In this document: piece after piece, positions 4,301 through 57,544 of the stretch | How positions within the stretch are numbered: position 1 is the stretch's first letter | How the letters are laid out: every line of letters begins with the position of its first letter | Assembly: GCF_947623445.1 (NCBI RefSeq) | Contig: NC_135245.1 | Location: 20,033,501-20,097,500 of the forward strand | DNA length: 64,000 bases | From: Clavelina lepadiformis | Lineage: Eukaryota > Chordata > Ascidiacea > Aplousobranchia > Clavelinidae | Direction of reading: 5' to 3' | Notes under the pieces: model-generated | The model's input: the letters and a program-made list of their open reading frames with translations, nothing else | Databases searched by the model: none | Told to the model about the DNA's origin: nothing | Made by a program: the position numbers and the translations under genes

Positions 4301-7300
4301 CGTAATATTCATTGGAAAGGACGGTTACGCAACAGTGAGTTCTTTAGAAGCAAATTGTTTCTTTGCTTTCATGAAATTATCACAATTTGTGATTGATTTA
4401 TTGTTTTTAATAAAAAATTCAGTTAAATGGAAAAGAAGTTCAAGGTTATGAATCAGACAACTTCAATCTTGCTCCATCCGGCAATGGGATGGTCCTTACA
4501 ACAAAATTCGGTCTCACAGTTGATTTCAACGGAAACCGAATAATTGTGAGATTGCCAAGCACCTACAAAGAAATGGTAATGATCATCTCAAGTGTTATTT
4601 TTATCTCATCAGTTTTCTTGCTACAATCTTCAATAATTCTTTTGTTATAATTTGAATTTAGATCAACGGTTTATGCGGCAATTACAACGATGACGAAAGT
4701 GATGATCTTGAGAAATCTGATGGAACCACAACAAATGATGTGAATGAGTTTGGTGATAGTCACCAGGCTGGAGATTGCGGAGATGAAACTCCAGATCCGA
4801 TTGTTTGCTCTCCTGAGGATAGAGAGAAATGGTAGGAGCAGCTAAATTCATGTTGTTAAGGTCTCGTAAATTAGTTGCTTTGTTAGTAAACTGGTTTTAC
4901 TTCAGGAATCGACCGGAATTCTGCGGGGCCATGGAAAGATATCGATACAATTGTGGAGATTTGGTTGATTTTGATCTTTACAAAGAATCTTGTTTGTTCG
5001 ATGCTTGTGCTACTGACGGAAACGAGGAAGTTATAACACAAGTAAGTTTTCGATTAGTTTTGTATCATTTTCACTTGCGTTAGTTTCCTGAATTCGTTTG
5101 TTTCATTCATTTCTGTATTAAACATATATTAAAGAAACCTTTTATAATGTTTACAAGATGAGTTTTACTTTTGCAGGCGATGCTTGGTTTTGTTGCTGAA
5201 TGCCAAGAAAAAGGCCGACAATTGTGCAACTGGAGACAAAATCTTGGCAGGCCGAGCTTGGAGTGTCCAGCTAACAGCCATTACCAAGGATGTGCCTCCC
5301 CCTGTCCTAACAGTTGCGCCAAACCTTCAGCTTCAACAAGGTGGGTCGTATTCATTTATCTGCTAGAGTACTGGTATTTTATAATTTTGAAACTCAAATA
5401 TGCGTAAACTTTCTGTTAAAGTATGCCAATTAGTTACCGCTGGATTAATCCTTAAAACAACTTTTATTTCAATCATCATTTCATTAGAAGTGTTACAAGA
5501 TTTCAAATTTATGTTAATGTACTGTTTGCTGTAACTGTAAACGGGTACAGCCAAAGCTAAACTAAGCATTCATTCAGAACATCATTATCAAGCAGCTATA
5601 TTGTAGCAGCATTGAATGCGTTTCCATATTCGTCATCTTGTTTATTTGAAATGTTTCAGTTGCCCGATCCCTGGAACAGTAGAAGATTGTGTTTGCAACG
5701 AAGGTTTCATCAAAGATTGCAACCGCTGCATCCCAGCCAGTGAATGTGGAAGTGTTGTCAATGGAGCCTACGTCAGCAACGGTGAGAGATTTTTTGAAGA
5801 ATGTTTTTGTAAAATTAAAAGTAACTTGGTTTTAACTGTTTGTTTAAATTTACATTTTTTTCAGATTGCACATTTGGCGATGCTACAATTATGCCACCCA
5901 CAGAACCGCCAACTGAACCACCAACTGACCCACCAACTGATCCACCAACTGAACCCCCAACTGAACCACCAACTGATCCACCAACTAACCCACCAACAGA
6001 CCCACCAACTGACCCACCAACTGACCCACCAACTGTCCCACCAACTGATCCACCAACTGATCCCCCAACTGACCCACCAACTGACCCACCAACTGACCCG
6101 CCAACAGACCCACCAACTGACCCACCAACTGAACCACCAACTGATCCACCAACTGATCCACCAACTGACCCACCAACTGAACCACCAACTGAGCCACCAA
6201 CTGATCCACCAACTGACCCGCCAACTGACCCACCAACTGATCCACCAACTGACCCACCTCCTCAACCTCCAAGTAAGAATGAATTTTGTTGGAAACTTTC
6301 TTACTGTGTTTGCACAATTTCCTATTGATTTTATCCTCTCTTCGTACAGTATCTGAGAAATTCTACCGTTTTTAACACACTTTGTGTTTACTTTTAGGTG
6401 TCGGTGTTTGCCGCGCTTATGGCGATCCCCACTATATCACACCCGATGGTAGAAAGTACGACTTCATGGGAAGTTGTGTCTATAATTTTGCGACAACCAA
6501 CTCCCTTGAACCGACTGATTCGAGATACTTTTCTATTGAAACTGCAAACGAACACAGACGAGGACACACCAGGGTGTCCTATTTGAGCAACGTCATAATC
6601 ACGCTTGGAAGTGGTGACGTAATATTCATTGGAAAGGACGGTTACGCAACAGTGAGTAATTTAGAAGCAAATTTTTACTTTGCTTTCATGAAATTATCAT
6701 AATTTGTGAATAATAGATTGTTTTAAATAAAAAATTCAGTTAAATGGAAAAGAAGTTCAAGGTTATGAATCAGACAACTTCAATCTTGCTCCATCCGGCA
6801 ATGGGATGGTCCTTACAACAAAATTCGGTCTCACAGTTGATTTCAACGGAAACCGAATAATTGTGAGATTGCCAAGCACCTACAAAGAAATGGTAATGAT
6901 CATCTCAAGTGTTATTTTTATCTCATCAGTTTTCTTGCTGCAATCTTCAATAATTCTTTTGTTATAATTTGAATTTAGATCAACGGTTTATGCGGCAATT
7001 ACAACGATGACGAAAGTGATGATCTTGAGAAATCTGATGGAACCACAACAGATGATGTGAATGAGTTTGGTGATAGTCACCAGGTTGGAGATTGCGGAGA
7101 TGAAACTCCAGATCCGATTGTTTGCTCTCCCGAGGATAGAGAGAAATGGTGAGAGTAACTAATTGTTTAACTTAGTTTAATTATCTTATAATTGAACGAC
7201 TTTTTTTGTTTAAATAATTTATTCTTGATTTAATTTGTTTTCGTTCAGGAATCGACCGGAATTCTGCGGGTCCATGGAGCGATTGGACGTTTCATGCAAA

Positions 7301-10300
7301 GATGTTGTTGATTTTGATCTTTACAAAGAATCTTGTTTGTTCGATGCTTGTGCTACTGATGGAAACGAGGAAGTTATTACACAGGTTTGCGCTTGCCACA
7401 ATGAAAACTAGTTACCGACCTTATTGTTTATATTATCACTCTCAAAGCTTAACCATGGCTTTAAGAATTGTTTCAACATTATTTTTCTTTGATTTTTGAA
7501 GTGCCAGTTGTGGATAGGTAATTGGGTGTTTTTGTAACTATTTGCACTTTTATGAAGTGATTTTGTTGTATTTACCGATTGCGATTGATTATTATTTGCA
7601 AATTACTTAACTCTGCACTTACTGTAATTGCATAAGTAACTTTCAAATAGGGGTTTTGTATTTTGTTTGCTCGACTTTCTTCTATACGTTTGAAGGCGAT
7701 CGAAAGTTTGGTAAAAGATTGTCAAGAAAAAGGTGCCAACACCTGCAACTGGAGACAAGACCTTGGCAGGCCGATCTTAAAATGTCCAGCTAACAGTCAT
7801 TACCAAGGATGTGCCTCCCCCTGTCCTGACAGTTGCGCCAATCCTTCAGCTTCAGTAAAGTGAGTTAGAGAGTGGAATGTTTTATATTGAAAGCGGATAT
7901 TGTTTATTGTTAACATTTACTTTGACATGTTTATTTTATGTAGTTGCCAAATCCCTGGAACAATAGAAGATTGTGTTTGCAACGAAGGTTTCATCAAAGA
8001 TTGCAACCGCTGCATCCCAGCCAGTGAATGTGGAAGTGTTGTCAATGGAGCCTACGTCAGCAACGGTGAGAGAGTTTTTGAAGAATGTTTTTGTCAAATT
8101 AAAAGTAACTTGGTTTAACTGTATGTTTTAAATTTACATTTTTTTCAGATTGCACATTTGGCGATGCTACAATTATGCCACCCACAGAACCCCCAACTGA
8201 CCCACCAACAGACCCACCAACTGACCCACCAACTGATCCACCAACTGATCCACCAACTGAACCACCAACTGACCCACCAACAGACCCACCAACTGACCCA
8301 CCAACTGACCCACCAACTGATCCACCAACTGATCCTCCAACTGACCCGCCAACAGACCCACCAACTGATCCACCAACTGATCCACCAACTGAACCGCCAA
8401 CTGACCCACCAACTGATCCACCTCCTCAACCTCCAAGTAGGAATGAATTTTGTTGAAAAGTTTCTTATTGTGTTTGCACATTTTCTTATTGATTTTATCC
8501 TTTCTTCGTACAGTATCTGAGACCTTCTACCCATTCTAAAATATCTGAGAAATTCTACCGTTTTAACACACTTTGTGTTTACTTTTAGGTGTCGGTGTTT
8601 GCCGCGCTTATGGCGATCCCCACTATATCACACCCGATGGTAGAAAGTACGACTTCATGGGAAGTTGTGTCTATAATTTTGCGACAACAAACTCCCTTGA
8701 ACCGACTGATTCGAGATATTTTTCTATTGAAACTGCAAACGAACACAGACGAGGACACACCAGGGTGTCCTATTTGAGCAACGTCACAATCACGCTTGGA
8801 AGTGGTGACGTAATATTCATTGGAAAGGACGGTTACGCAACCGTGAGTTCTTTAGAAGCAAATTGTTTCTTTGCTTTCATGAAATTATCACAATTTGTGA
8901 TTGATTTATTGTTTTTAATAAAAAATTCAGTTAAATGGAAAAGAAGTTCAAGGTTATGAATCAGACAACTTCAATCTTGCTCCATCCGGCAATGGGATGG
9001 TCCTTACAACAAAATTCGGTCTCACAGTTGATTTCAACGGAAACCGAATAATTGTGAGATTGCCAAGCACCTACAAAGAAATGGTAATGATCATCTCAAG
9101 TGTTATTTTTATCTCATCAGTTTTCTTGCTACAATCTTCAATAATTCTTTTGTTATAATTTGAATTTAGATCAACGGTTTATGCGGCAATTACAACGATG
9201 ACGAAAGTGATGATCTTGAGAAATCTGATGGAACCACAACAGATGATGTGAATGAGTTTGGTGATAGTCACCAGGTTGGAGATTGCGGAGATGAAACTCC
9301 AGATCCGATTGTTTGCTCTCCTGAGGATAGAGAGAAATGGTAGGAGCAGCTAAATTCATGTTGTTAAGGTCTCGTAAATTAGTTGCTTTGTTAGTAAACT
9401 GGTTTTACTTCAGGAATCGACCGGAATTCTGCGGGGCCATGGAAAGATATCGATACAATTGTGGAGATTTGGTTGATTTTGATCTTTACAAAGAATCTTG
9501 TTTGTTCGATGCTTGTGCTACTGACGGAAACGAGGAAGTTATAACACAAGTAAGTTTTCGATTAGTTTTGTATCATTTTCACTTGCGTTAGTTTCCTGAA
9601 TTCGTTTGTTTCATTCATTTCTGTATTAAACATATATTAAAGAAACCTTTTATAATGTTTACAAGATGAGTTTTACTTTTGCAGGCGATGCTTGGTTTTG
9701 TTGCTGAATGCCAAGAAAAAGGCCGACAATTGTGCAACTGGAGACAAGATCTTGGCAGGCCGAGCTTGGAGTGTCCAGCTAACAGCCATTACCAAGGATG
9801 TGCCTCCCCCTGTCCTAACAGTTGCGCCAAACCTTCAGCTTCAACAAGGTGGGTCGTATTCATTTATCTGCTAGAGTATTGGTATTTTATAATTTTGAAA
9901 CTCAAATATGCGTAAACTTTCTGTTAAAGTATGCCAATTAGTTACCGCTGGATTAATCCTTAAAACAACTTTTATTTCAATCATCATTTCATTAGAAGTG
10001 TTACAAGATTTCAAATTTATGTTAATGTACTGTTTGCTGTAACTGTAAACGGGTACAGCCAAAGCTAAACTAAGCATTCATTCAGAACATCATTATCAGG
10101 CAGCTATATTGTAGCAGCATTGAATGCGTTTCCATATTCGTCATCTTGTTTATTTGAAATGTTTCAGTTGCCCGATCCCTGGAACAGTAGAAGATTGTGT
10201 TTGCAACGAAGGTTTCATCAAAGATTGCAACCGCTGCATCCCAGCCAGTGAATGTGGAAGTGTTGTCAATGGAGCCTACGTCAGCAACGGTGAGAGATTT

Positions 10301-13300
10301 TTTGAAGGATGTTTTTGAAAAATTAAAAGTAACTTGGTTTTAACTGTTTGTTTAAATTTACATTTTTTTCAGATTGCACATTTGGCGATGCTACAATTAT
10401 GCCACCCACAGAACCGCCAACTGAACCACCAACTGACCCACCAACTGATCCACCAACTGAACCACCAACTGAACCACCAACTGATCCACCAACTAACCCA
10501 CCAACAGACCCACCAACTGACCCACCAACTGACCCACCAACTGTCCCACCAACTGACCCACCAACTGACCCGCCAACAGACCCACCAACAGACCCACCAA
10601 CTGAACCACCCACTGATCCACCAACTGATCCACCAACTGACCCACCAACTGAACCACCAACTGAGCCACCAACTGATCCACCAACTGACCCGCCAACTGA
10701 CCCACCAACTGATCCACCAACTGTTCCACCAACTGACCCACCAACTGACCCACCAACAGACCCACCAACAGACCCACCAACTGAACCACCCACTGATCCA
10801 CCAACAGACCCACCAACTGACCCACCAACTGACCCACCAACTGTCCCACCAACTGACCCACCAACTGACCCGCCAACAGACCCACCAACAGACCCACCAA
10901 CTGAACCACCCACTGATCCACCAACTGATCCACCAACTGACCCACCAACTGAACCACCAACTGAGCCACCAACTGATCCACCAACTGACCCGCCAACTGA
11001 CCCACCAACTGATCCACCAACTGACCCACCTCCTCAACCTCCAAGTAAGAATGAATTTTGTTGGAAACTTTCTTACTGTGTTTGCACAATTTCCTATTGA
11101 TTTTATCCTTTCTTCGTACAGTATCTGAGAAATTCTACCGTTTTTAACACACTTTGTGTTTACTTTTAGGTGTCGGTGTTTGCCGCGCTTATGGCGATCC
11201 CCACTATATCACACCCGATGGTAGAAAGTACGACTTCATGGGAAGTTGTGTCTATAATTTTGCGACAACAAACTCCCTTGAACCGACTGATTCGAGATAC
11301 TTTTCTATTGAAACTGCAAACGAACACAGACGAGGACACACCAGGGTGTCCTATTTGAGCAACGTCACAATCACGCTTGGAAGTGGTGACGTAATATTCA
11401 TTGGAAAGGACGGTTACGCAACAGTGAGTAATTTAGAAGCAAATTGTTACTTTGCTGTCATGAATTTATGTGAATTTGTGAATAATAGATTGTTTTAAAT
11501 AAAAAATTCAGTTAAATGGAAAAGAAGTTCAAGGTTATGAATCAGACAACTTCAATCTTGCTCCATCCGGGAATGGGATGGTCCTTACAACAAAATTCGG
11601 TCTCACAGTTGATTTCAACGGAAACCGAATAATTGTGAGATTGCCAAGCACCTACAAAGAAATGGTAATGATCATCTCAAGTGTTATTTTTATCTCATCA
11701 GTTTTCTTGCTGCAATCTTCAATAATTCTTTTGTTATAATTTGAATTTAGATCAACGGTTTATGCGGCAATTACAACGATGACGAAAGTGATGATCTTGA
11801 GAAATCTGATGGAACCACAACAGATGATGTGAATGAGTTTGGTGATAGTCACCAGGTTGGAGATTGCGGAGATGAAACTCCAGATCCGATTGTTTGCTCT
11901 CCCGAGGATAGAGAGAAATGGTGAGAGTAACTAATTGTTTAACTTAGTTTAATTATCTTATAATTGAACGACTTTTTTTGTTTAAATAATTTATTCTTGA
12001 TTTAATTTGTTTTCGTTCAGGAATCGACCGGAATTCTGCGGGTCCATGGAGCGATTGGACGTTTCATGCAAAGATGTTGTTGATTTTTACACTTACAAAG
12101 AATCTTGTTTGTTTGATGCTTGTGCTACTGATGGAAACGAGGAAGTTATTACACAGGTTTGCGTTTGCCACAATGAACACTAGTTACCGACCTTATTGTT
12201 TATACTATCACTCTCAAATCTTAACCATGGCTTTAAGAATTGTTTCAAAATTTTTTTTTTTTCGATTTTTGAAGTGCCCGTTTTGGTTAGGTAATTGACT
12301 GTTTTTGTTATTATTTTCACTTTTATGAAGTGATTTTGTTGTATTTACCAATTACGATTGATTATTATTCGCAAATTACATAACTCTGCACTTACTGTAA
12401 TTGCATTAGTAACTTTCAAAATGGGTTTTGAATTTTGTTTGTTCGACTTTGTTCTCTACGTTTGAAGGCGATCGAAAGTTTGGTCAAAGATTGTCAAGAA
12501 AAAGGCGCCAACACATGCAACTGGAGACAAGACCTTGGCAGGCCGATCTTAAAATGTCCAGCTAACAGCCATTACCAAGGATGTGCCTCCCCCTGTCCTG
12601 ACAGTTGCGCCAATCCTTCAGCTTCAGTAAAGTAAGTTAGAGAGTGGAATGTTTTATATTGAAAGCGGATATTGTTTATTGTTAACATTTACTTTGACAT
12701 ATATATTTTATGTAGTTGCCCAATCCCTGGAACAGTAGAAGATTGTGTTTGCAACGAAGGTTTCATCAAAGATTGCAACCGCTGCATCCCAGTCAGTGAA
12801 TGTGGAAGTGTTGTTGATGGAGCCTACGTCAGCAAAGGTGAAAAGATGTGTTTATTGTATCTGTGGTTTACTATATTAAGTTGTCCATTCATTTACGTAC
12901 AATTTGATCGTATTTACTTGATGGTATGACACAATTTCGACCTTTGTGTTCATTAGATTATTCGCAAAGTTTAATGGCGATTTATTTTAGATTGTCGTCG
13001 ACGTGGTAGGAAAGAACCGAAAGTGGACTCGGTCTTGTATCAGTGTGTGGAAGTTGGGAAGAAGAGCGAAGTCTTGTTCGGTTGTTCTTCATCATCGTCG
13101 ACGTCCAGATTATCTTGCGGGAGATGTGAGTTATCTCCTTGTTCTCTCCTTGCATAATTCCCTCAATATCCTACAGACTCAGTCGTCATCTTCAATCTCT
13201 ACTCACATTGCAGAAGTTAACCCTTTGGTTTCTTTACCAGATTGTCATCCCCCTCCGACCCATAAGAGCGTCTCCTACCGACCAGTTAAGGACCTGTATC

Positions 13301-21900: not shown

Positions 21901-24900
21901 TGTTCTCCAATTAAAAGTGAAATGGTTTTAACTGTTTGTATTAAACTGTTTGTACTGTTTGCAACGGTGAAAGATTTTGTGAAGGATGTTTTTGTCAAAT
22001 TAAAAGTGACTTGGTTTAACTGTATGTTTTTGTTTTAAATTTACGTCTTTTCAGATTGCACATTTGGCGATGCAACATTTATGCCACCTACAAGACCGCC
22101 AACTGACCCACCAACTGAACCACAAACAGACCCGCCAACTGACCCACCAACTGACCCACCAGCTGAGCAACCAACTGACCCGCCAATTGAACCACCAATT
22201 GACCAACCAACTGATCCACCAACTGACCCACCAACTGATCCATCAACTGAACCACCAACAGACCCGCCAACTGATCCACCAACTGACCCACCCACTGACC
22301 CACCAACTGATCCACCAACTGACCCACCCACTGACCCACCAACTGATCCACCCACTGACCCGCCAACTGACCCACCAACTGATCCACCAACTGACCCACC
22401 AACAGACCCACCCACTGATCCACCAACTGACCCACCAACTGACCCACCAACAGACCCACCCACTGACCCACCAACTGACACACCCACTGACCCACAAACT
22501 GATCCACCAACTGATCCACCCACTGACCCACCAACTGACCCACCCACTGACCCACCAACTGATCCACCAACTGATCCACCAACTGATCCACCCACTGACC
22601 CGCCAACTGACCCACCAACTGATCCACCAACTGACCCACCAACAGACCCACCCACTGATCCACCAACTGACCCACCAACTGACCCACCAACAGACCCACC
22701 CACTGACAAACCAACTGATCCACCAACTGACCCACAAACTGATCCACCAACTGATCCACCCACTGACCCACCAACTGACCCACCCACTGACCCACCCACT
22801 GACCCACCAACTGATCCACCAACTGATCCACCAACTGATCCATCAACTGAACCACCAACAGACCCGCCAACTGATCCACCAACTGACCCACCCACTGACC
22901 CACCAACTGATCCACCAACTGACCCACCCACTGACCCCCAACTGACCCACCAACTGATCCACCAACTGATCCACCAACTGACCCACCAACTGACCCACCC
23001 ACTGACCCACCCACTGACCCACTAACTGATCCACCAACTGACCCACCTCCTCAACTTCCAAGTAGGAATGAATTTTGTTGGAAACTTTATTATTGTGTTT
23101 GCACAATTTCCTATTGATCTTATCCTTTCGTTCTACACTATCTGAAAAATTCTACAGTTTTTAAAACACTTTGTGTTTACTTTTAGGTGTCGGTGTTTGC
23201 CGCGCCTATGGCGATCCCCACTACATTACACCCGATGGTAGAAAGTACGACTTCATGGGAAGTTGTGTCTATAACTTTGCGACAACAAATTCCCTTGAAC
23301 CGACTGATGAGAGATACTTTTCGATTGAAACTGCAAACGAACACAGACGAGGACACACCAGGGTGTCCTATTTGAGCAACGTCACAATCACGCTTGGAAG
23401 TGGTGACGTAATATTCATTGGAAAGGGCGGTTACGCAACGGTGAGTTCTTTAGCTGCAAATCATTTCTTTGCGTTCATTAATTTATGTCAATTTGTGAAT
23501 GATAGATTGTTTTTAATAAAAAATTCAGTTAAATGAAAACGAAGTTCAAGGTTATGAATCAGACAACTTCAATCTTTCTCCATCCGGGAATGGGATGGTC
23601 CTCACAACAAAATTTGGTCTCACAGTTGAGTTCAACGGAAACCGAATAATTGTGAGATTGCCAAGCACCTACAAAGAAATGGTAATGATCATCTCAAATG
23701 TCAACACTTCATGTCATCGGTTTTCTTGCTACAATCTTCAATTATTCTTTTGACGTAATCTGAATTTAGATCAACGGGTTATGCGGCAATTACAACGATG
23801 ACGAAAGTGATGATCTTGAGAAATCTGATGGAACCAAAACAGATGATGTGAATGAGTTTGGTGATAGTCACCAGGTTGGAGATTGCGGAGATGAAACTCC
23901 AGATCCGATTACTTGCTCTCCTGAGGATAGAGTGAAGTGGTGAGAGTAACTAATTGTTTAATTTGGTATAACTATCTTATGATTGAACAACTTTTTAGTT
24001 TAAATAATTTGTTCTTAATTTAATTTGTATCATTTCAGGAATCGACCAGAATTCTGCGGGTCCATGGAGCGATTGGACGGTTCATGTAAAGATGTGGTTG
24101 ATTTTGATCTTTACAAAGAATCTTGTTTGTTCGATGCTTGTGCTACTGATGGAAACGAGGAAGTTATTACACAGGTTTACGTTTGTCACAATAAAAACTA
24201 GTTACCGACCTTATTGTTTATACTATCACTCTCAAATCTTAACCATGGCTTTAAGAATTGTTTCAAAATTATTTATCTTCGATTTTTGAAGTGCCAGTTG
24301 TGATAGATAATTGATTGCTTCTGTTATTATTTGCACTTTTATGAAGTGATTTTGTTGTATTTACCAATTGCGATTGAAGTATTATTCGCAAATTACTTAA
24401 CTCTGCACTTACTGTAATTGCACAAGTATTTTTCAAATTGGAGTTTTGTATTTTATTTGTTTAACACTGTTCTCTACCTATAAAGGCGATCGAAAGTTTG
24501 GTGAAAGATTGTCAAGAAAAAGGCGCCAACACCTGCAACTGGAGACAAGACCTTGGCAAGCCGATCTTAAAATGTCCAGCTAACAGCCATTACCAAGGAT
24601 GTGCCTCCCCCTGTCCTGACAGTTGCGCCAATCCTTCAGCTTCAGTAAAGTAAGTTAGAGAGTGAAATGTTTTATATTGAAAGTGGATATTGTTTATTGT
24701 TAACTTTTACTTTGACATATTTATTTGATGTAGTTGCCCAATCCCTGGAACAGTAGAAGATTGTGTTTGCAACGAAGGTTTCATCAAAGATTGCAACCGC
24801 TGCATCCCAGCCAGTGAATGTGGAAGTGTTGTTGATGGAGCCTACGTCAGCAACGGTGAAAGATATTGTGAAGAATGTTTTTGTCAAATTAAAAGAGACT

Positions 24901-38318: not shown

Positions 38319-41300
38319 ATGAAGCATTTTCTTGTCGTGTTGTTTGCCGTATTCGCGTCGACCTCGAAAGCGAGTGACGTTTTGGAATTTGATGATTCGA
38401 ATTTTGGAACAGAAATCACTAAATATGACCTAATTTTGGTTGAATTCTTTGCACCTTGGTAAGTAGGCTAAAACTGTTATGCTAAAATTTATGTTGTTAT
38501 GCTGAAGCTGCGTGTGGATGAAATACGAAATTAAGATCGGTCAGTGAAGTCTATTTATTCGTTATTAATTGGCGCACAGACAAAAATGTTCGGCGTGAAC
38601 GTTGATAAATCTCGTGCGTGCAGGTACCACACTTTCTACTGCGGCTAACAACCTAAAATGACAAGTGCAGGTGCAGAATTAGGTTCCAGTATACAAATGC
38701 ACAACCACAGAACGCCTTTGTATACTAGAACCCAGCTACTCAAATTGTGACGTCATCTGGTCGTGCACTTGTATGAGTTATAGGCAACATCATACCATCA
38801 CATTCCGTATTTTATCGTGCATAACAACCTGTTTTTAAACTGCGACGTATAGTTTTAGTTTAATAATTTTACAAAGAATTGTGAATTTGCCGCCGCACTA
38901 CTTGGCTCCAAAGAATAATAACAACTAATTAACACAAAGCACAAGTTTATTTCACAATTTGTTCTCGAAAGAAAATATTTTGGTGAAAATATATCACAGT
39001 CCAAAGTGTTGATGAGAGCTGTTTCGCAAAGAATTTGTATTTGATTTACATTATTAATTATTATTCTATACATTACAAGTAATTTAAAATCGGTAATACT
39101 GAGGGGGCTCTCTTCTAATGATTTACGCAGAAGTTTTGTCCAAGTTTTAGTTTTTGACATAAACAACATAAAGCCTTGTGGCACAATCGATCGTTAGAAA
39201 AATGGTCTGACAACTTGAACCTAATAGGCTAAAACAATTGTGCTTATTTTATTCCAAATTAGGCTCTTTACAGTTTATTTCCTATGTAAGTTTATTACCA
39301 GACACTGTTGTACCTAGAACTATGGTTTGAGTGGAATGTTGTGGTTCATGTTATTTGTGTGTCGCGGTTTTAAGATGAATTATTTCAGGTGTGGACATTG
39401 CAAGAAACTTGCCCCTGAATATGAAATCGCAGCCACGGCATTGAAAAGGGAAGACCCTCCAATTTCTCTGGCAAAGGTAACGAACCATGACTGCATGTTT
39501 AAGCCTTAGTAGTGCACTACCGAGTGCATGTGACTTTTGCGGGATTGGTCGTAATCTAATTTGCTTTGTGCTTCTGTACTCTTGGCCAATGGTTTAAACC
39601 TGTCCTCATTGAATTCAAATTGTGACCTTACAAAGGTTGATTGTACACGCAGTCGAAAAACTTGTGCCCAGCAAGATATCCGAGGCTACCCTAATTTAAA
39701 GATATATAGGTCAGGCCACTCGTCCAAATATCGGGGGCCAAGAAGAGCAGGTATTCTAGAATGTGCATGTTGTTAGGTTGATTGTGCATCCAGTCCTGAA
39801 CTTTGCAAAAATCTTAACATCTTGGGTTTTCCGAGTTTGAAAATTTTCCAGCGGGGCGAGGAGAGTAGCAATTATAAGGGACGAAGGACTGCAGGTGGAC
39901 GTAGAGCTCACCCTTCAAAAAATAATGCTTCAGTGTTTTGTTTCTTGGCCACATGAGCAAAGATTTAATTTTGCTTGCATTGGCAGCCACCGGTGAATTC
40001 ATCTGAATTCCAAAGCAAATTATGTCTCATAAATCAGACCAAATTTCTTAAAGACAGATGAAACTCTGTTACTTTACATGCTTTAAGTTTGTGGAAATGA
40101 AATTTCGTCGGGTGATTTTATAATTTTGGCCAATATTTTATGCTGTAATATTTTAACTTGAACCTAAACTGAAGTGTTATTTTATTTCATTTTTACTAGT
40201 CATTAGAATACATGGTGATGGGCTTAGCAGCAATTCTGTGTTTTGGTGTTAGGTTGACTGCACTGCTAATAGCGATACTTGCTCAAAATTTGGTGTTAGT
40301 GGTTATCCCACTTTGAAAATCTTTCGTGGTGGAGAATTTAACCAAGATTACAATGGCGGTCGGTCAGCAGGTATAGAAATATCAGTAGAAAATGGTAACG
40401 ATCATAGCTTAATTAGATCGTAATGTAGTTGGACTTAAACTTGTGAGTAACTTACAGATGGAATTATAAGCACGTTAAAAAAAATGAATGGACCTGCCTC
40501 CAGAGTATTAGATGATGCCGAAAAACTGAAGAAGTTCCTAGAAAATGCTGACCCAGTCATTATTGGTGGGTTTTCATTGCACTTCGCACCTGAATGTCGA
40601 TAATTGCCGGCACAAGGAGTTGAAATTGTAAATGTGGTGAATACTTTACAGGTTACTTTGAAGAGGGAAATGACGGTATAAAAGAATTTGAAAACATCGC
40701 AAGCGCTCTGCGTGAAGATTATAAATTCGGTCACACCAGCTTAGCTGATGCCCTTACCGAAGCAGGAACTAAGTAAGTGCTTAGATCGCCTTAGTTACCG
40801 CATCACAACACCCTCTGATGGACTTCTTTTGCCACAGTGTTGTGAAGCTTCATCGACCGAAGCGTCTTAAGAGCATTTTTGAAGACCAAGTATTAACTTT
40901 TGAAGGGAAACTAAACTTGAACAATCTCCGCAATTTCTTGAAGGATAACATGTAAGATTGTGATTGCTGGGTGATAACTGATAAGCGTTATGAGCGTGAG
41001 GGCATTGGTAACTAAATAACCTTATTTGCCTAAACCTATTATTAAACCTAAATAACTTAATATTTTATTTTATTACTTATCTTATTTGCAGCTTTGGTCT
41101 GTGCGGACACGCTGTATCTACTAACTTTGAAAAATTCAAACGTCCATTGGCAGTGGCCTTGGATGCAAATGTGGATTACGTCAAAAATCCAAAAGGTTCA
41201 AACTATTGGAGGAACAGGTTTGACATGATAACCCCAGCTCTGTTGTTTTAATTGAACTTTTACTTATAAAGGTCATCTTCCTGTTTTAGAGTCATGAAAG

Positions 41301-42346
41301 TCGGCAAAGACTTCGCAGACCAGATGAACTTTGCAATTGCAAATCCAGCAGACTTAGGTCAATTTCTCCCTGATTCTGGTCTCCCTGAGAATGATAAGAG
41401 CGCCAAGCCACAGAAGCCAGCAGTCGTAATCTACGGTTCAGACGACAGGAAATACATCATGCCTGATCTGTTCAGGTGAAATTTGATCTAGTTCTGGGGT
41501 CGGTATACCACCTACTTCCAATGCTTTACTGTTACTCTTCTTTCAGCCTCGATGGATTTAAGGAGTTTCTTGAGAAGTTTTTGAACGGAGAAATATCAGC
41601 GCACATTAAATCAGCGCCCATTCCCGAAGCCAACGATGATCCGGTCACCGTCGTTGTCGGAAAGACGTTCGATGAAATTGTAATGGATGAGAGCAAGGAC
41701 GTGCTCATTGAATTCTATGCCCCCTGGTGCGGTCATTGCAAATCTCTGGAGCCGAAATGGAACGAATTGGGAGAGAAGGTATTTGACATACTGTGAGTCT
41801 GTGACATCATATACACTGCTTTGTGCTCACGTTTTAATCGTTTTGTAAACGTCACAGATGAAAGACAATGAAGATGTTGTGATCGCCAAAATGGACGCGA
41901 CCGCCAACGAGACACCTAAGGAATATGCTGTGTCAGGTTACCCCACCATTTACTGGGCGCCGAAAGACAGCAAAAAGAATCCAAGGAAATACCAGGTTTG
42001 TTTAATGTTAAAATGAAAACTGCCACTTTCGAAGGTTTATTTTCCAAGTTAAATGTCATAACATAATTACCTAAGTTGTCCTTCCAATCTAAATATAGCT
42101 TTAGCTAAACCTAAAATAGCCAATATCAACTTGAACACTCATTCTCCTAGCAGCACATCTATGGCAACAGGCTGCGTGACATAGTTTCGGTGAAATTGCC
42201 AATCTGTAAAATACATTATTTCCCTACCAGGGTGCGAATAACTTCGTTATTTCAATTTCCTTTCTTTCCAGGGTGGACGCGAAGTTGCCGATCTGGTCAA
42301 GTTTCTGAAGGACAACGCCTCGTCCAAAATCAAGACCGAGCTCTAG
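38319..42346 (+). CDS. PDIA3: Protein disulfide isomerase A3 / ERp57-like
   Basis: ER thiol-disulfide oxidoreductase that forms and rearranges disulfides in secretory glycoproteins. Eleven exons, 481 aa with the third exon-3 copy: 38319-38458, 39389-39476, (39636-39750 | 39778-39895 | 40253-40370), 40458-40565, 40652-40772, 40838-40951, 41092-41217, 41290-41475, 41547-41778, 41858-41995, 42272-42346. Signal peptide [18 protein letters not shown]; two active sites WCGHCK (split by intron 1 in domain a; exon 9 in domain a'); ERp57 landmarks [52 protein letters not shown]-terminus KTEL, an ER-retrieval variant. Exon 3 exists in three phase-compatible versions, so three isoforms differing around the cis-Pro loop of domain a are predicted. 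AATAAA at 42536-42541. It may serve the disulfide-rich secreted proteins in this window, as a general folding enzyme. Confidence 0.93.
39636..39750 (+). CDS. PDIA3: PDI alternative exon 3, copy 1
   Basis: 115 bases, entering in phase 0 and leaving in phase 1 like copies 2 and 3. Encodes [20 protein letters not shown] followed by [18 protein letters not shown]. One codon shorter than the others. Keeps the VDC, the second Cys and GYP; more basic than copy 3. Flanked by AG and GT sites. Confidence 0.75.
39778..39895 (+). CDS. PDIA3: PDI alternative exon 3, copy 2
   Basis: 118 bases. Encodes [20 protein letters not shown] then [19 protein letters not shown]. Only 27 bases separate it from copy 1, too short for a normal intron, so copies 1 and 2 cannot be spliced together. 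Reading frame intact. Confidence 0.75.
40253..40370 (+). CDS. PDIA3: PDI alternative exon 3, copy 3 (canonical)
   Basis: 118 bases. Encodes [20 protein letters not shown] then [19 protein letters not shown], closest to vertebrate ERp57 ([20 protein letters not shown]). The default exon by homology. Confidence 0.9.
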
Positions 42347-42984: not shown

Positions 42985-43345
42985 CATATTTGCTACACCA
43001 CATCGTTTACATGAGTTATTTCGTAGCTCGTGTGACTCGACTCTGCACTCGGTTTGATTGGTTCCCGGTTCGATTCCCGGCCTGCCCGTCGCTCTTTCGT
43101 GAAGCAGCGTAAGCAGCCTGGTCCACGATCACATGTATAAAGTAAACAGTCTTGATCACAATCTCTGGAACTGAGGCGCCTGCCAGATCAGGGACACAGG
43201 CCATGGAGTAAAGTAGTGGCGAGCGGTCAAATTCAGACCTTCTCTTCCAAAGCATAAAAATTTGAAAATTGAAGCGAAGTGAAAACATATTTTTAACACG
43301 ATCGTATAAGCTTAGCTTTCTCACATCAAGACATAATCTGTGTAT
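42985..43345 (+). mobile_element. Dispersed tRNA-like repeat, copy 1
   Basis: Starts GGTCATATTTGCTACACCAC, carries TAGCTCGTGTGACTCG (A-box-like) and CGGTTCGATTCCCGG (B-box-like). The same order is found in the copy at 43976. Likely a tRNA-derived SINE. Confidence 0.5.
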
Positions 43346-43975: not shown

Positions 43976-44335
43976 GGTTATATTTGTTACACCACATCCT
44001 ATACGTGTGCAACTTCATAGCTCGTGTGCTTGGACACTGCACTCGGTGCTAGAGGTTCCGGGTTCGATCCCCGGCCATGGAGCAAAAGGGCAGTCCATGA
44101 ACGTAGACAACTGGTCCAATGACCGAAAACCACCAAACAGGTGGTAGAACCGACGGGGAAAAATGATAATTCGGAATACGCACTGGCAGCAGCATTTTTT
44201 TTTATTTGGATAATTTTGAAAGATATATATTTGAAATTCAATGCAAAGTGAATCCCGGTGAATAGCCACTTTGGATAAAATTTGCTTGCTGACCTGGAGG
44301 TATCGGGTGCGATTCCTAGCCAGTGCAGCAGATGC
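43976..44335 (+). mobile_element. Dispersed tRNA-like repeat, copy 2
   Basis: GTTATATTTGTTACACCACA, then TAGCTCGTGTGCTTGG and GGGTTCGATCCCCGG, colinear with copy 1 ~1 kb upstream but diverged. Not a functional tRNA gene. Confidence 0.5.
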
Positions 44336-50351: not shown

Positions 50352-52540
50352 TTATAATTTGGATGTTTCTGTAATTTCCAGCACATGCAGAATTTTCTTC
50401 TGTAGATATTTCTTCTGTTCATTCAAAAATTGAGATATTTCAAAAATATTTCCTCCGAATTCAATGGATTTATTCCAAAAAAAGACAGCCACTAACAAAG
50501 CCATTTGTGCTGTGAGGCCATAAATAATGAAATGAGAATGTTCACCACAACCAAACACAGTTTGAAGAAAGTTGTTTTCAAGAAATGTTGGCACGGATGG
50601 AACAAACCAATTGTACACGTGCAACATTACGTCATCAAGTTTGCTTTTTACAAATCTGTGGTTTGAGTTACTCAGAAAAAAGTCAAGTGGACATGCAAAT
50701 ACGGCGTCAACTTCATCCCGGTTGATGGTCAGTCGTATCTGATCCAAATTTTTAAGACGACAAATAATTGGAAACACGAGAAGCTTGGTATATGAAAAGA
50801 ATGGAATCATGGAACCCAAGACATGGACATGCTCACTCTTCAGACCAACTTCTTCTTCAGCTTCTCTGAGTGCAGTTTGGATGAGAGAAGCGTCATCCTC
50901 ATCCTGTTTACCACCCGGGAAGCAAACATCACCCGAATGTGAAGTCAATTTGTCTGAACGCTTCGTTAGCAAAACGTAAACCTTCCCATCGAAATGGAAT
51001 AGTGGAACTAGGACAGATGCCCTACAACAAGAAATTATTATTGAAATGTAAAAATTAATTTAGGCATGTACAGTATATACAATATAGAATATATACATGC
51101 ATATTTCTATGCATAAATAGGTTGTTGCTGTCTAAAATTGAAAAATGCAACTGTAGTACAAAAAAACAAATGATCTGGAAAGGCAACAAACATAAAATTT
51201 TGGATCACTTTAAATTTTATGTGTATACCTCAGCAAACACGCAATTATATAAGTGAACAAATAATGCACTCTAATGGAGTGAGCAAAACTCAGACAACAT
51301 GCTATCTATGTTTAGAGAATATCTAATTCACCTAAATTGCTGGTTTTGGTTTGTTTATTTAACTCAAAACACCGATTTCATGCAAAAATACTAAGAATGG
51401 CTTTTATGGAACAGCAGCTACAGAGATAACCACTTACAAGCACATTGGAGCACGTATTTACATTTGCTTCAATTGCATTTAAAAGTTGCGCAACACAGAA
51501 ACTGCAATTTTCGTGTTGCATAATTGATTAAAATGATGAGGTTAAAAATTAAACCGTGAAGTCTAGCGCTGGTCCATTAATGCAAGCAAACCAAACTGAC
51601 AATTTGAATGGCTACAGTGGAAGTTATGGAATTTGCATACATAAGACTTGACAGTGTGCACACCTAAATTTTTCACGTTAATGGATGTTGTCCCATCAAA
51701 GTTGTATCTCTGCATGCATCTTAGAGAATACAAAGAAATTTGTTTTGTTTGTTTATTATAAATTGGTTGGGAAGAAGTTCAGTATGCACACTGATGAAAC
51801 TGATGTGTGCATTTGCCACACTTTCCAGAAAAGTTTGCATACATAATTTTTGTTAAAAACTGTCATACTTTCCACTCTGGCTTTCTGTGAAGAGGTTATA
51901 ACAACATAACACTCTCTTAACAACCAGCTTGGAAAGTTTGCTGTTCTTGGGTGAGAAATCCTCCGTTCAACAAGCTGAAAAAATAACAATTATGCAATCC
52001 GCAAAATAATGGTTGACCATTCTAAGTTACACCACTGCTAGAATTGCTCCATACGTTTTGGAACAAATCGTAATTCGAAAGTGTCAGAAAAATTTAGTTT
52101 TAGCTTATATGCATATGCTTTATATGCGCAAATAAGTGTGTGGATTTCAATTCCTCGAGCACTTAGCAAACTTCCCAATCTGGGTGTTACACTATATTCA
52201 TATATATATATATATATATATATAACACTCGATCCTGGTATTTACATGATTAGGTGAATTAGACGCTAATTTAAAGCAGTTCTGTCAAAATCGAAACTAG
52301 GTCTATAAAGTAAATCAGTCATTCAAAGTTTTCTTTCACAGTTTGCACCGTAGGCTATCAATGGTACCATAAAGCAAACAGGCGAAATTAATCTTAGACC
52401 AACAATATTTAACATTATTTACCATCTATCGTAATGTCAAGTTACCTTCTTTTAGGCCAATATATCTTAATTTTTTCAAGAAAAGGTAGATTTTGTATTT
52501 CCAGTTGAGCCAGCCTTGCTTCTATTCCCGCCCAGTCCAT
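50352..52540 (-). CDS. NUDT7: Peroxisomal CoA diphosphatase, NUDT7-like Nudix hydrolase
   Basis: Hydrolyses CoA and acyl-CoA to 3'-phospho-AMP and (acyl-)phosphopantetheine, controlling the peroxisomal CoA pool. Two exons, 52540-52446 and 51021-50352, 254 aa. The exon junction restores ...YWPKRRASVLVPLF. The NudL/UPF0035 signature is complete: LLTKRSDKLTSHSG, VCFPGGKQDEDD, ALREAEEEVGL. The C-terminus is TETSKL, a textbook type-1 peroxisomal targeting signal, and the length fits the family. The intron is 1.4 kb and contains a TA microsatellite. Start chosen by conservation and by the CAG acceptor-like site two bases before ATG, which could receive a spliced leader. Confidence 0.9.
52201..52224. 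repeat. (TA)n microsatellite
   Basis: About 12 TA units inside the NUDT7-like intron. Confidence 0.95.
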
Positions 52541-53604: not shown

Positions 53605-56592
53605 TTAAACAGGAGGCAGGCCCCTTCTTATGATTACAACCCCACCTTTCTCAAATCTCTGCTTGACATCGGATTCAGAATGTGTGTTGATATACTCCGG
53701 ACTTCCTGATTCAACCTCCTTTAACAACATTTTCGGATCATCAAGATCAGGAGATCTGTGTGACATCACAATGCATTATATTTATATCACAATAACCTAA
53801 CAAGCATGTACGGTAAATCTCCGAGCCTTCATATAGAATACAGTACCAGCTTTGAGCCTACTCAAATAGAAAGCAAATGGCTGCCTAAGCAAGTCTAGAC
53901 GTAAGAACTTTCGAAATTGATTTACAAAAGGGATTTTGCTGCACACGCACTTTTGTAGAAAAATAAGTGCGGGTGCTTTACGTTGTAAGAAACTTAAAAG
54001 AAATTCAAAGTTCAAACGACTCAGCTATTTTACTGAGGCTGTAGCTAACAAACCACGTTTTATCTTATGATTGTGACGTCATGAAGTATCGCGTGAAACG
54101 AGTTTGAGAACTTTGTACAGATGACTCGCAAAATCTTGACTTACACTTTCGCAATGCGAGGTTTCACCATCAACGTCACAGATTCCGGAGAATTTTTGAC
54201 GACATGGGAAAGCATCTCCACGCTCGTTACTCGGATCCCATTGGCTGATATGATCTGATCACGTGGCTGTATGATACCCAATCGCATGGCAGGGCCGCCT
54301 TCTAAAACTCGGTTGACCACAACGCGGCCATCTTGAAGAGGAATCACTGTGAGACCGATTCCTATAAATTAAACAATCGCGTTTAGTCGACGTTACGTCA
54401 CTAAAGGCGTCTAAGGTAATTTTCTTGCGCCACCTACCGATCCCACTACTTCTGTGGTTGGGAAGAGTGACGCTTCTGTATTCCTTTGACGTCATCTTTC
54501 GGCGACACACCTCTTTTGTGACGTCATTGTTGTTTGGTGCATTGCAGCATAATCTCTGAAGCGCGCTTTCCGCGACCGCCATGCTCTGGTTGAGCTGCTT
54601 GTATCTTAAGATGTCTTGACGATTCTGAAAATGTTAATAAAATGCCAATTAAATCATTACTGAGCGTCATAAAGTAACTATGACCGAACAAAACCAACTG
54701 CTCGAATTAGAAACAGACACTGCGTAAGAACTCGGCTGGTCCAAACCAAACAAACCCAAAATAAGTTAACAAGCTGCGTAAAAATCTTTTACCATAATTC
54801 AAAAGCAGTGTTGGTACGACTCATACTCGGAGTGAATACTAAAACCCAAAAAATTGAAAACATATTTTACCGGAACATTTGTGCCCAAATATAAGAAACA
54901 AACAACTAATTCAAAGCGTAAATGGAAAAAAAAACAGTGAAAAATACGACGTTGATTTTTGACGAAAATGCAACAAAAAAGAGCAGAAGGAAGATTTTTT
55001 TCTGCACAACTGAACGCTCTTAATCAAGTCACGCTAGCAATTGTGACGTCATAGTAAATTCTTGCCACACTACTTAAGGCGTGGACGATTCCCAGAAAGA
55101 CAATAATCGCTGCTGCGTTGGTTTGATCAGAAGCGAACTTTGGACTCAAATTTGGGAAGTTGGAAGCGATAAACTCGATTTCATATGAAACGGCGAAAAT
55201 TCTCGCTAGCTTCCAAATAAAAAGTGATTATTTATGACTTGGCGATTATGACGTATTACAATATTTTGTGACATCACAACGTATGGTAACAGGTGTTTTC
55301 GAAATGTTGTTTCGGTTGAAAGCAAAAAGTGTGATGTGGTTATCACAGTATTAATAAATGTCTCGATCTGCATCACCTGCACTATATAAAACTATGAACA
55401 CGTCCGAAGCGAAGGTAAGCCAAGATTAATAGAAATCTGTCAGCAATTATCGTCCAATGGAGTGACGTCAGCGAATAGAAACTTACAAAGCTTTAAAACC
55501 AAGGCTCAGTAACGAGTTATTGTGGCCGACACGGTCCCGCAATGCTTGTCTCAGACACTGGTCTCAACTTTACAAATTACGACTGCATTATTACGTCACA
55601 AAAAGCCGCTCCAGGCTTCACGACTTACGGCTGAGATGACACATGGACTAGCCTATTACACGTCAAAGCACAAAATGACAGGCTAGCCGTACATCAAGTT
55701 AACAACTATAGTTTATTTGACGTCACAAACCAAGTTTTCGTGCCTACATCAAAGATAACAGCGTCATAGCAATTAACAAAAACTGGAAAAAGGAGTCGAT
55801 TTCAGTCCAGCTTTCGACACGTGGTCGCGTGATTAACGATGCGAGTTTCCGTTTGTGACGAAACATGAAACCGGACAATTCATTTTAACAAACCGTACAA
55901 AGAACTCGCGCGGCCTTTCCACAGAATTTTCTGTACAATCTAGAAGGAATTTGTCGTCATTCTAACGGTTTTAACAGTCCCGGACCAAACACACTCCATG
56001 CCCTACAGTCAAGCAACAAAACTTTGATCACAATTTAAGCAACACCGTGACTTATGCTTTGCATTCAAAGTGTACAGAGGCCAGACTTGCAAAGGTTCGC
56101 CTCAGTTTAAACTGCAGGCTCAGACCCAATGTTGATACAGTTACAACTTACAAGCATAATTAAGCAAACATGTCATTAACATGTGAGCTATGACGCACGC
56201 TGGATTAATTGCAGGCTGGCAGTAAATGTCATGATCCTAACCCTCACCTTATAATGGATGAGCTGTATCTGTATCTGGGCCACCCAACCGACGTCTGACT
56301 TCGTTCGAAATGTCAAAACTTCTCCTTGTTCGGTGAGGATGGTAAAATAATTCATGTTCGTGTCTCTTTCATCTTCAAGTCTTTTCACTTTCTTGATGTG
56401 ACAAAGCGGTATTGTCCGTAACGGTCGGTCACCTGCACTGAACTTGACCTTGCTTCGGTACAAGCGTATGGCCTCTGAGTTCAGGGCGCAGTGCTTCTTC
56501 TTCCAAATTGGACCGATTGGAAATCTTCGCTTGTCCACTTTCTTTTCAACTAAACTCTGGCAGACAACTTCTGTTTCGGGCTGGGCTCCCAT
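53605..56592 (-). CDS. PH-PDZ domain scaffold protein
   Basis: Four joined exons, 56592-56248, 54624-54438, 54361-54145 and 53755-53605, give 299 aa. Residues ~25-115: PH-like domain (KKKHCALNSEAIRLYRSKVK ... YFTILTEQGEVLTFRTKS ... WVAQIQIQLIHYK), with the final Trp expected in PH domains. Then a helix (NRQDILRYKQLNQSMAVAES). Residues ~175-250: PDZ (GIGLTVIPLQDGRVVVNRVL, GGPAMRLGIIQPRDQIISANG). Ends KGGVVIIRRGLPPV. PH domains bind phosphoinositides or proteins and PDZ domains bind C-terminal tails, so a membrane-associated adaptor is inferred. The domain pair recalls syntrophins but the order and length do not fit, so no orthologue is claimed. The ATG at 56592 has a good context (GAAATGG). 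The frame stays open upstream to ~56735 (CCCAG acceptor), so the true start may be in an earlier exon. Confidence 0.78.
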
Positions 56593-57544
56593 TTCCACGC
56601 TTTCACTACTGTTTCGTCTTCCTTTGGTCCAGGCTCGTTTCCAGCAACAAACTAAACATCCACCGCTGCTTGTCAGTGGGGTTTGATCCAATGGCGCAAT
56701 AGAAGCCACTTTGTTAGCAAATAATTTCTTCCTGGGTTTCAATCATTCCAATCCAATCCAGAAGTTCGCTTCACTTCTGTGTGTCGAACTGCATTGACCC
56801 TAGGCCTATACGCATAAGAAGAACGAAAGAACGACATTAATTATTTTCATTTCAAATTGTTATCAAATTATTAAAAAAAAACTTAACTGAAGATTCCTTA
56901 CTTTCCTTTCTCCCTCTGGTGTTACGTCATAAAACGATAATAAAGAAACAAGGGTCACTTAAAGGCTTTTGAAAACGCTTTTGACAAGTCCACTTACAAG
57001 GCTAGGCATATCTTACCAAACTATGGATAGGACTGTTCGACTCAAACTAAAGCTAAATTTACTGTTACATAGCTATGATCCAATAATCCAGTAGTATAAA
57101 TCACAATAAACTGTTTTCAATATAAATTCTAGCTTCTGCGAGACATTCTTCGCTTATTCTTAACCAATTTATTTGGTGCCTTGACCATGCGCATAGCAAC
57201 AATATTTTGGCGACGGGACGCTTTGTCGTCTTATCATGAATGGCATTTCTCCTTACCATAACACAGAGCCCTCTTCGTCAACGACGATCTATTCCCTTTT
57301 TTTCGCGACAGATGAGCCGTGCGCTTGGCAAATAACAGGCTCGGTGGGTTAGCGAAATTGCTGGTAATATCAGTTATTACGTTTAACATACCGCTAAGCT
57401 CCGTTAAACTTGTAAAGGCACCACCTGGCCCACACCAAGCTCCCAACTCAATGCACCTCAAACACCTACACAACACCAATGTTGTCGAAGCGATGTCAAG
57501 TAGATATTACAGAGCGATCACTTACTGGAGTGTTAAGCATAAGT

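Follow-up and report, generated by a model that had tools for sequence, protein, structure and literature searches.

The question raised by this locus is whether three similar segments between two exons of a tunicate PDIA3/ERp57 gene are alternative versions of one exon and, if they are, what the exchange of that exon would mean for the enzyme. The segments, which we call c1, c2 and c3, lie in a stretch of 64 kb (the window) that occupies positions 20,033,501-20,097,500 of contig C6 within the 209-Mb genome of Clavelina lepadiformis. An earlier note on this DNA had read them as mutually exclusive exons, a reading that fits both the layout of the locus and its evolutionary signal, and is supported. 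Judged from sequence, it is highly probable that c1, c2 and c3 are a working cluster of three tandem-duplicated, mutually exclusive exons at position 3 of the gene, one of which would enter each mRNA.

The PDIA3 gene and the segments at its third exon position

The gene has 11 exon positions, the third of them in three versions, with GT-AG at all introns and a stop codon at 42344-42346 (Table 1). Its assignment to PDIA3/ERp57 follows from PDIA3 being the best full-length similarity, from the two CGHC sites and from the length of an a-b-b'-a' chain. The best PDB matches of the product are PDIA3 chains (E about 1e-134), which we take to be human, and the isoform with c1 scores 451 bits against PDIA3 over residues 8-473, the next-best PDI reaching 264 bits. 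It differs from human PDIA3 in its C-terminus, which is KTEL, a variant that we assume works as a retention signal of the endoplasmic reticulum (ER) like KDEL, and in the three versions of the exon 3 stretch, of which human PDIA3 presumably has one. The N-terminus encoded by exon 1 is presumably a signal peptide. Compared with PDIA3/ERp57 in PDB entries 3f8u and 6eny, the product shares the a-b-b'-a' chain by full-length match, the two CGHC sites and, in the c3 exon, 27 of 39 residues.

Table 1. Positions in the window of the PDIA3/ERp57 gene, its exons and the versions of exon 3
Feature	Position	Strand	Basis
PDIA3/ERp57 gene, ATG to stop	38319..42346	+	gene model and ORF
Exon 1: N-terminus and start of domain a (...APW)	38319..38458	+	gene model
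Exon 2: CGHC active site, ...LAK, ends in phase 0	39389..39476	+	gene model
Exon 3, version c1: 115 nt, 38 codons, pI 10.6	39636..39750	+	
Gap between c1 donor and c2 acceptor: 26 nt, in frame ends in TAG	39751..39776	+	
Exon 3, version c2: 118 nt, 39 codons, pI 8.8	39777..39894	+	
Exon 3, version c3: 118 nt, 39 codons, pI 6.1	40253..40370	+	
Exon 4: enters in phase 1, completes D of ADGI...	40458..40565	+	
Exons 5-11	40652..42346	+	ORF
Exons 5-8	40652-40772, 40838-40951, 41092-41217, 41290-41475	+	
Exon 9, second CGHC	41547-41778	+	
Exon 10	41858-41995	+	
Exon 11, ending KTEL	42272-42346	+	

The three segments are homologous, exon-like and placed between exons 2 and 4, and each has an AG acceptor, an end in CAG/GT, an entry in phase 0, an exit in phase 1 and no in-frame stop. 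The description of the segments in the earlier note thus holds for all three, except that c2 lies one base to the left of where it had been put, with the consequence that the gap between c1 and c2 is 26 nt and not 27. All three encode the motif VDC...C...G(Y/F)P.LKI, as had been claimed, and their peptides, taken as the codons of each version together with the residue pair DG that exon 4 completes (40-41 aa), score 26.1 (c1), 29.1 (c2) and 36.8 bits (c3) against the Pfam Thioredoxin family, all above its gathering score of 23.5. With c3 as the query, tblastn of the 64-kb window returned c2 at E = 5e-10 and c1 at E = 2e-8; c1 and c2 did not retrieve each other in the window, and their peptides find each other in searches of the genome (E = 5e-4 and 0.002).

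The effect of these segments on the reading frame follows a simple rule. Any single version joins exons 2 and 4 in frame, as had been expected, and gives a full open reading frame of 480 (c1) or 481 codons' worth of protein (c2 and c3 alike), while all five other combinations run into an early stop, at residue 79 when no version is included, at 115 with c1 and c2, with c1 and c3 or with all three, and at 116 with c2 and c3. The ten introns of the path through c3 measure 65-930 nt, and the gap between c1 and c2 is so far below the shortest of them that joint splicing of this pair is not plausible, which bears out the earlier view that the two are too close together. We also considered a read-through exon made of c1, the gap and c2, which at 259 nt (1 mod 3) would be in frame by its length, and rejected it, because it stops at residue 122, at the very TAG that forms the acceptor of c2. 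In excerpts of a survey of human clusters (PMC5740500), mutually exclusive exons are recognised by homology, frame, similar length, GT-AG borders and freedom from stops, and further by a distance from donor to branch point under 50 and by a frame shift upon joint inclusion. The exons described here are adjacent and homologous, share their phase, have lengths of 115, 118 and 118 nt, which differ little and by a multiple of 3, lack stops and have GT-AG borders; as regards exclusion, we find the 26-nt gap between c1 and c2 and a shift of frame for any joint inclusion.

Our searches of the genome covered 209.06 Mb in 95 contigs, the published assembly kaClaLepa1.1 being given in the excerpted genome paper as 210.1 Mb in 102 scaffolds (PMC10884593); the same source names a public polyA RNA-seq run for Clavelina, ERR10908613. 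Among the best candidates scored, the search with the c3 isoform gave 13 matches in the PDIA3 gene and 27 on other contigs, the latter at 29-63% identity, which makes 40 in all at E up to 1, and hence no second PDIA3 or processed copy was seen among them. The c1 peptide had nine matches at E up to 10, namely c1, c2, c3 and stretches on contigs C1, C2, C4 and C7, and the c2 peptide had six, namely c2, c1, c3 and stretches on C2 and C7 (again among the best candidates scored). A fourth copy of exon 3 was found neither in the 64-kb window nor among the best candidates scored in the genome.

That the copies could be an artefact of assembly, in which haplotypes were collapsed or paralogues misjoined, has a negligible chance of being true. 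Nothing in the one haplotype examined speaks for it, and against it stand three points: in alignment the copies share no more than 56-64 of 114-117 bases, far under allelic similarity; the 981-nt region, used as a DNA query, matched one place in the genome, itself; and the published assembly was built from HiFi reads with a QV of 67.4, according to the excerpted genome paper (PMC10884593).

Elsewhere in the window, five near-identical open reading frames lie on the plus strand (1850-2194, 4065-4451, 8573-8959, 11154-11498 and 23171-23536; CRAYGDPHYITPDGRKYDFMGSCVYNF...), separated by long in-frame repeats of PTDPP type. The one that was tested has a VWD domain (Pfam E=6e-12), and the five appear to be tandem copies, either of a gene for a VWF/mucin-like secreted protein or of exons of such a gene. 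The minus strand carries a reading frame with a NUDIX domain (50352-50972, Pfam E=3e-11) and another with a PH domain (56188-56742, Pfam E=1e-6). Downstream of the PDIA3 gene, two tRNA-like B-box words, GGTTCGATTCCCGG (43068-43081) and GGTTCGATCCCCGG (44061-44074), lie on the plus strand in similar surroundings and are suggestive of what we take to be tRNA-derived SINE copies; ARAGORN found no tRNA genes in the 64-kb window.

Splice sites and routes to exclusion

Three routes to mutual exclusion are named in the excerpts of the human survey: incompatible splice sites, a distance from donor to branch point under 50, and a frame shift followed by nonsense-mediated decay (PMC5740500). The steric route fits c1 and c2, and the frame-shift route fits every pair. 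We propose that c1 and c2 would exclude each other in that the splicing machinery could not occupy the c1 donor and the c2 acceptor simultaneously, and that transcripts with c1 and c3, or with c2 and c3, would be removed by nonsense-mediated decay. Such decay could also serve as a means of control in addition to protein diversity.

The acceptors of the three versions differ in predicted strength. Scored with a small position weight matrix built on the gene's nine remaining (constitutive) acceptors, they reach 5.5 bits for c3, -0.6 for c2 and -5.7 for c1, and no other acceptor of the gene is as weak as that of c1. The donors, at 5.2 (c1), 4.3 (c2) and 6.9 (c3), are ordinary, since the comparison donors range from 2.7 to 8.1. 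Because c3 combines the highest acceptor score among the versions with an ancestral-like sequence, and c1 and c2 have weaker acceptors, we predict c3 to be the default and c1 and c2 to be regulated, with activation specific to cell type or stage being needed for their use. A similar division is described in the excerpted survey, where clusters consist mainly of one ubiquitous exon and others that are regulated (PMC5740500).

A further route, which only some clusters have, is the competition between RNA pairings of the docking and selector kind (PMC6071210, in excerpt). The earlier note had suggested looking for pairing motifs in the introns; they were sought in this locus, and nothing significant emerged. 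RNAduplex applied to the four introns gave one of six pairs at z=-2.7 against plain shuffles (intron 2 paired with the one that precedes exon 4). When contiguous helices in 10 region pairs were compared with dinucleotide shuffles, the lowest value was p=0.045 uncorrected, for the pair that joins the end of c1, GGCCAAGAAG, to 39941-39950, and the next best, intron 2 with the end of c1, had p=0.085. With no significant competing pairing in this locus, RNA pairing as the switch is unsupported. Introns around the versions contain the word TTGGCCA at 39582, 39945 and 40126, and its complement, GGCCAAGA, lies at the 3' end of c1 (39736-39743), which is not significant; nor is the word enriched in the window, which has 11 matches where 9.3 are expected.

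Divergence and constraint among the versions

The three versions have diverged far from each other. Amino-acid identity is 17/38 between c1 and c2, 18/38 between c1 and c3 and 16/39 between c2 and c3; for the same pairs pS is 0.71, 0.97 and 0.79, that is, saturated, and pN is 0.37, 0.37 and 0.36. The saturation of synonymous sites indicates that the duplications are old, and relatives should share them.

Another reading would have c1 and c2 as dead tandem copies, no longer spliced, with only c3 in use, and the evidence makes this distinctly improbable. In a codon model (our own script, three sequences, a star tree), in which several branch lengths stand at their upper bound because synonymous sites are saturated, a single omega over the three copies is 0.07, and neutrality of all branches is rejected against the free model (2dlnL 40.8, p=7e-9). 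Neutrality is likewise rejected for c1 and c2 together (p=2e-4) and for c1 alone (p=0.005), and the c1-c2 pair without c3 has an omega of 0.094 (p=0.002). The substitutions do not reject neutrality for c2 alone (p=0.47) or for c3 alone (p=0.08), and the compatibility of c2 with omega=1 is one of the points in favour of dead copies; others are that c3 is nearest PDIA3 (27/39 identical residues to PDIA3 of the PDB, against 19/38 for c1 and 18/39 for c2) and exceeds c1 and c2 in acceptor score, and that the acceptor of c1 is so weak.

Since codon models are blind to stops, indels and splice sites, we simulated neutral decay from the c3 exon in 5000 runs, assuming 0.1 indels per substitution. With 0.31 substitutions per site, the value fitted when c2 is taken as neutral, a frame free of stops and shifts survives together with the two splice dinucleotides in 0.46% of runs, an outcome that leans on the indel term, the product of freedom from stops (0.33) and retained splice sites (0.32) being about 0.1; survival is 0.06% at 0.5 substitutions per site and nil at 0.7 and 1.0. 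With that indel rate, then, neutral copies would keep all these features in at most 0.46% of runs, and yet c1 and c2 have intact frames, lengths in keeping with c3 and their splice dinucleotides despite saturated synonymous divergence.

The residues that have been kept point the same way. Fourteen positions are invariant in c1-c3 (V1, D2, C3, C10, G17, P19, L21, K22, I23, G27, Y33, G35, R37 and A39), including the two CX6C cysteines and the loop proline, and at all 14 the residue is that of PDIA3 in the PDB, which argues against dead copies. We asked further, by permutation, whether c1 and c2 preferentially keep residues common to seven other PDI-family stretches (three of TXNDC5, two of PDIA4 and two PDIA4-like ones of Clavelina; the DNAJC10 domains, the a' domain of PDIA3 and stretches L026, L027, L029 and L030 were left out). 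Over the 27 positions at which c3 equals PDIA3, p=0.04 for c1 and p=0.10 for c2. We rely on this test because changes on the c3 branch confound two others, which were set aside: a Fisher test that set the residues kept in c1 and c2 against those common to c3 and PDIA3 (p=1.4e-4 and 3.5e-4), and a rank test that took in all positions (p=1.6e-4 and 0.006).

The earlier note had said that copies 1 and 2 decaying with stops and neutral rates would speak against it, and what we find is intact frames and a rejection of neutrality for the two together, c2 by itself being the one with p=0.47. Decay of both c1 and c2 is untenable, and for c2 singly there is a good case that it is functional, which rests on its intact frame, length and splice sites. 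The exon cluster is real and well built, and it is very likely to be functional.

A functional cluster might also act without adding to protein diversity, if the segments were poison exons, whose double inclusion lowers the output of ERp57 through nonsense-mediated decay and thereby controls its expression. We hold this to be very improbable as a replacement for mutually exclusive, translated exons. It accounts for the stops, at residues 79-116, in all five combinations with none or several of the versions; however, poison exons need no conserved thioredoxin frame, and the selection on c1 (p=0.005), together with the retained core, points to a translated protein.

The origin of the exon can be followed some way into the family. 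Six of the paralogous stretches that the c1 and c2 peptides matched in the genome are thioredoxin-like, with the GYP motif, one of them (L027) having an upstream stop. In two others, which resemble PDIA4 (L028, contig C2 at 4.56 Mb) and TXNDC5 (L029, contig C1 at 14.07 Mb), labels given by resemblance, without gene models, the exon begins at an AG just before VDxT, as it does here, and for this reason the left boundary may be old in part of the family. A left boundary common to all paralogues was considered and rejected, since L023, L026 and L030 run on without an AG and L027 is ambiguous. Unlike PDIA3, the PDIA4-like and TXNDC5-like genes have no tandem second version among the best candidates scored in the genome searches. 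We also asked whether intron flanks had been duplicated along with the exon. Intron 2 resembles the intron between c2 and c3 when judged by plain shuffles (0/500; reverse strand p=0.002), but dinucleotide shuffles give p=0.066 (reverse p=0.036) and 876 real stretches of the window give p=0.063, and after these controls the resemblance was rejected as evidence.

An exchangeable cis-proline loop

Alignment to PDIA3 places the CGHC site in exon 2, where it is common to all isoforms, and the start of exon 3 at VDC. The exon 3 stretch corresponds, as we take it, to helix alpha-3, the cis-Pro loop (G-Y/F-P) and strands beta-4 and beta-5 of domain a, and these would be exchanged while CGHC stays. The loop of c3 is SGYPT, as in PDIA3, that of c1 is RGYPN and that of c2 is LGFPS. 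The loop proline is followed by T in c3, in PDIA3 and in all seven comparison stretches, by N in c1 and by S in c2. Among the stretches left out of that comparison, L026, L029, L030 and the PDIA3 a' domain have T at this position, L027 has S, and the five DNAJC10 domains with an alignment there have S, S, T, E and S; N was found in none of these stretches. The R three residues before the loop proline in c1 is also present in the three TXNDC5 domains. The calculated pI of the exon peptide is 10.6 for c1, 8.8 for c2 and 6.1 for c3, with net charges of +8, +2 and 0. Both CX6C cysteines, which presumably form a structural disulphide in ERp57, are kept in all three versions.

According to excerpts of a DsbA study from 2026, backbone hydrogen bonds let the cis-proline loop clamp the substrate cysteine, and the engagement of substrate is tuned by parts of the loop and its surroundings (PMC13269488). 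By analogy with these findings, a specificity switch in this ERp57 is plausible, in which altered loop residues and charge would change the preference of domain a for clients and partners. We suggest tentatively, as a possibility somewhat short of an even chance, that the client range of ERp57 may be set here by splicing, which would produce three enzymes with the same CGHC, different cis-Pro loops and charge, and cell-specific use.

It could be that the exons are mutually exclusive and translated, and that the three proteins are equivalent, the switch between them being incidental. We think this unlikely, though several observations agree with it: the core residues of the fold and the CX6C pair are kept in the three versions, pN is nearly equal across the pairs (0.36-0.37) with no acceleration, and some of the loop changes have precedents in other PDI-family domains (DNAJC10, L027, TXNDC5). 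Equivalence sits poorly, however, with the strong differences in charge between the exons, and with the N of c1 and the S of c2 at a position where c3, PDIA3 and the seven comparison stretches have T.

The cluster proposed here, of three mutually exclusive exons, has analogues in its form. Like the human tandem clusters, as described in excerpts of their survey (PMC5740500), it consists of adjacent, homologous internal exons of matching phase and similar length, and like known clusters it shifts the frame upon joint inclusion and has two members that are sterically close. It is unlike them in that its host is an ER oxidoreductase and in that no docking/selector pairing was found. Examples in Drosophila include CadN, Mhc, 14-3-3zeta and srp (PMC9013439, in excerpt). 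The earlier note knew of no such description in ERp57, which agrees with our search of the open-access literature: among the matches listed, none described mutually exclusive exons for PDIA3, for any other gene of the PDI family or for ERp57 of an ascidian. The Ensembl annotation of this genome may list the isoforms already. We know of no earlier case of mutually exclusive splicing of a substrate-contact loop in a thioredoxin-fold enzyme. The mechanism, tandem mutually exclusive exons, is thus well known, and the host protein and the site appear to be new.

Oxidoreductases of the ER usually diversify by gene duplication, while here a single gene seems to use alternative exons to vary one substrate-contact segment, with the catalytic site held constant. 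If this is true, nature would supply three matched enzymes whose differences are confined to the surroundings of the cis-Pro loop, and with them a direct test of the role of that loop and a natural experiment on how it sets specificity. Tunicates, to our knowledge, are believed to be without the MHC class I system that ERp57 serves in vertebrates, and the locus raises the question of which tunicate cells need a different ERp57.
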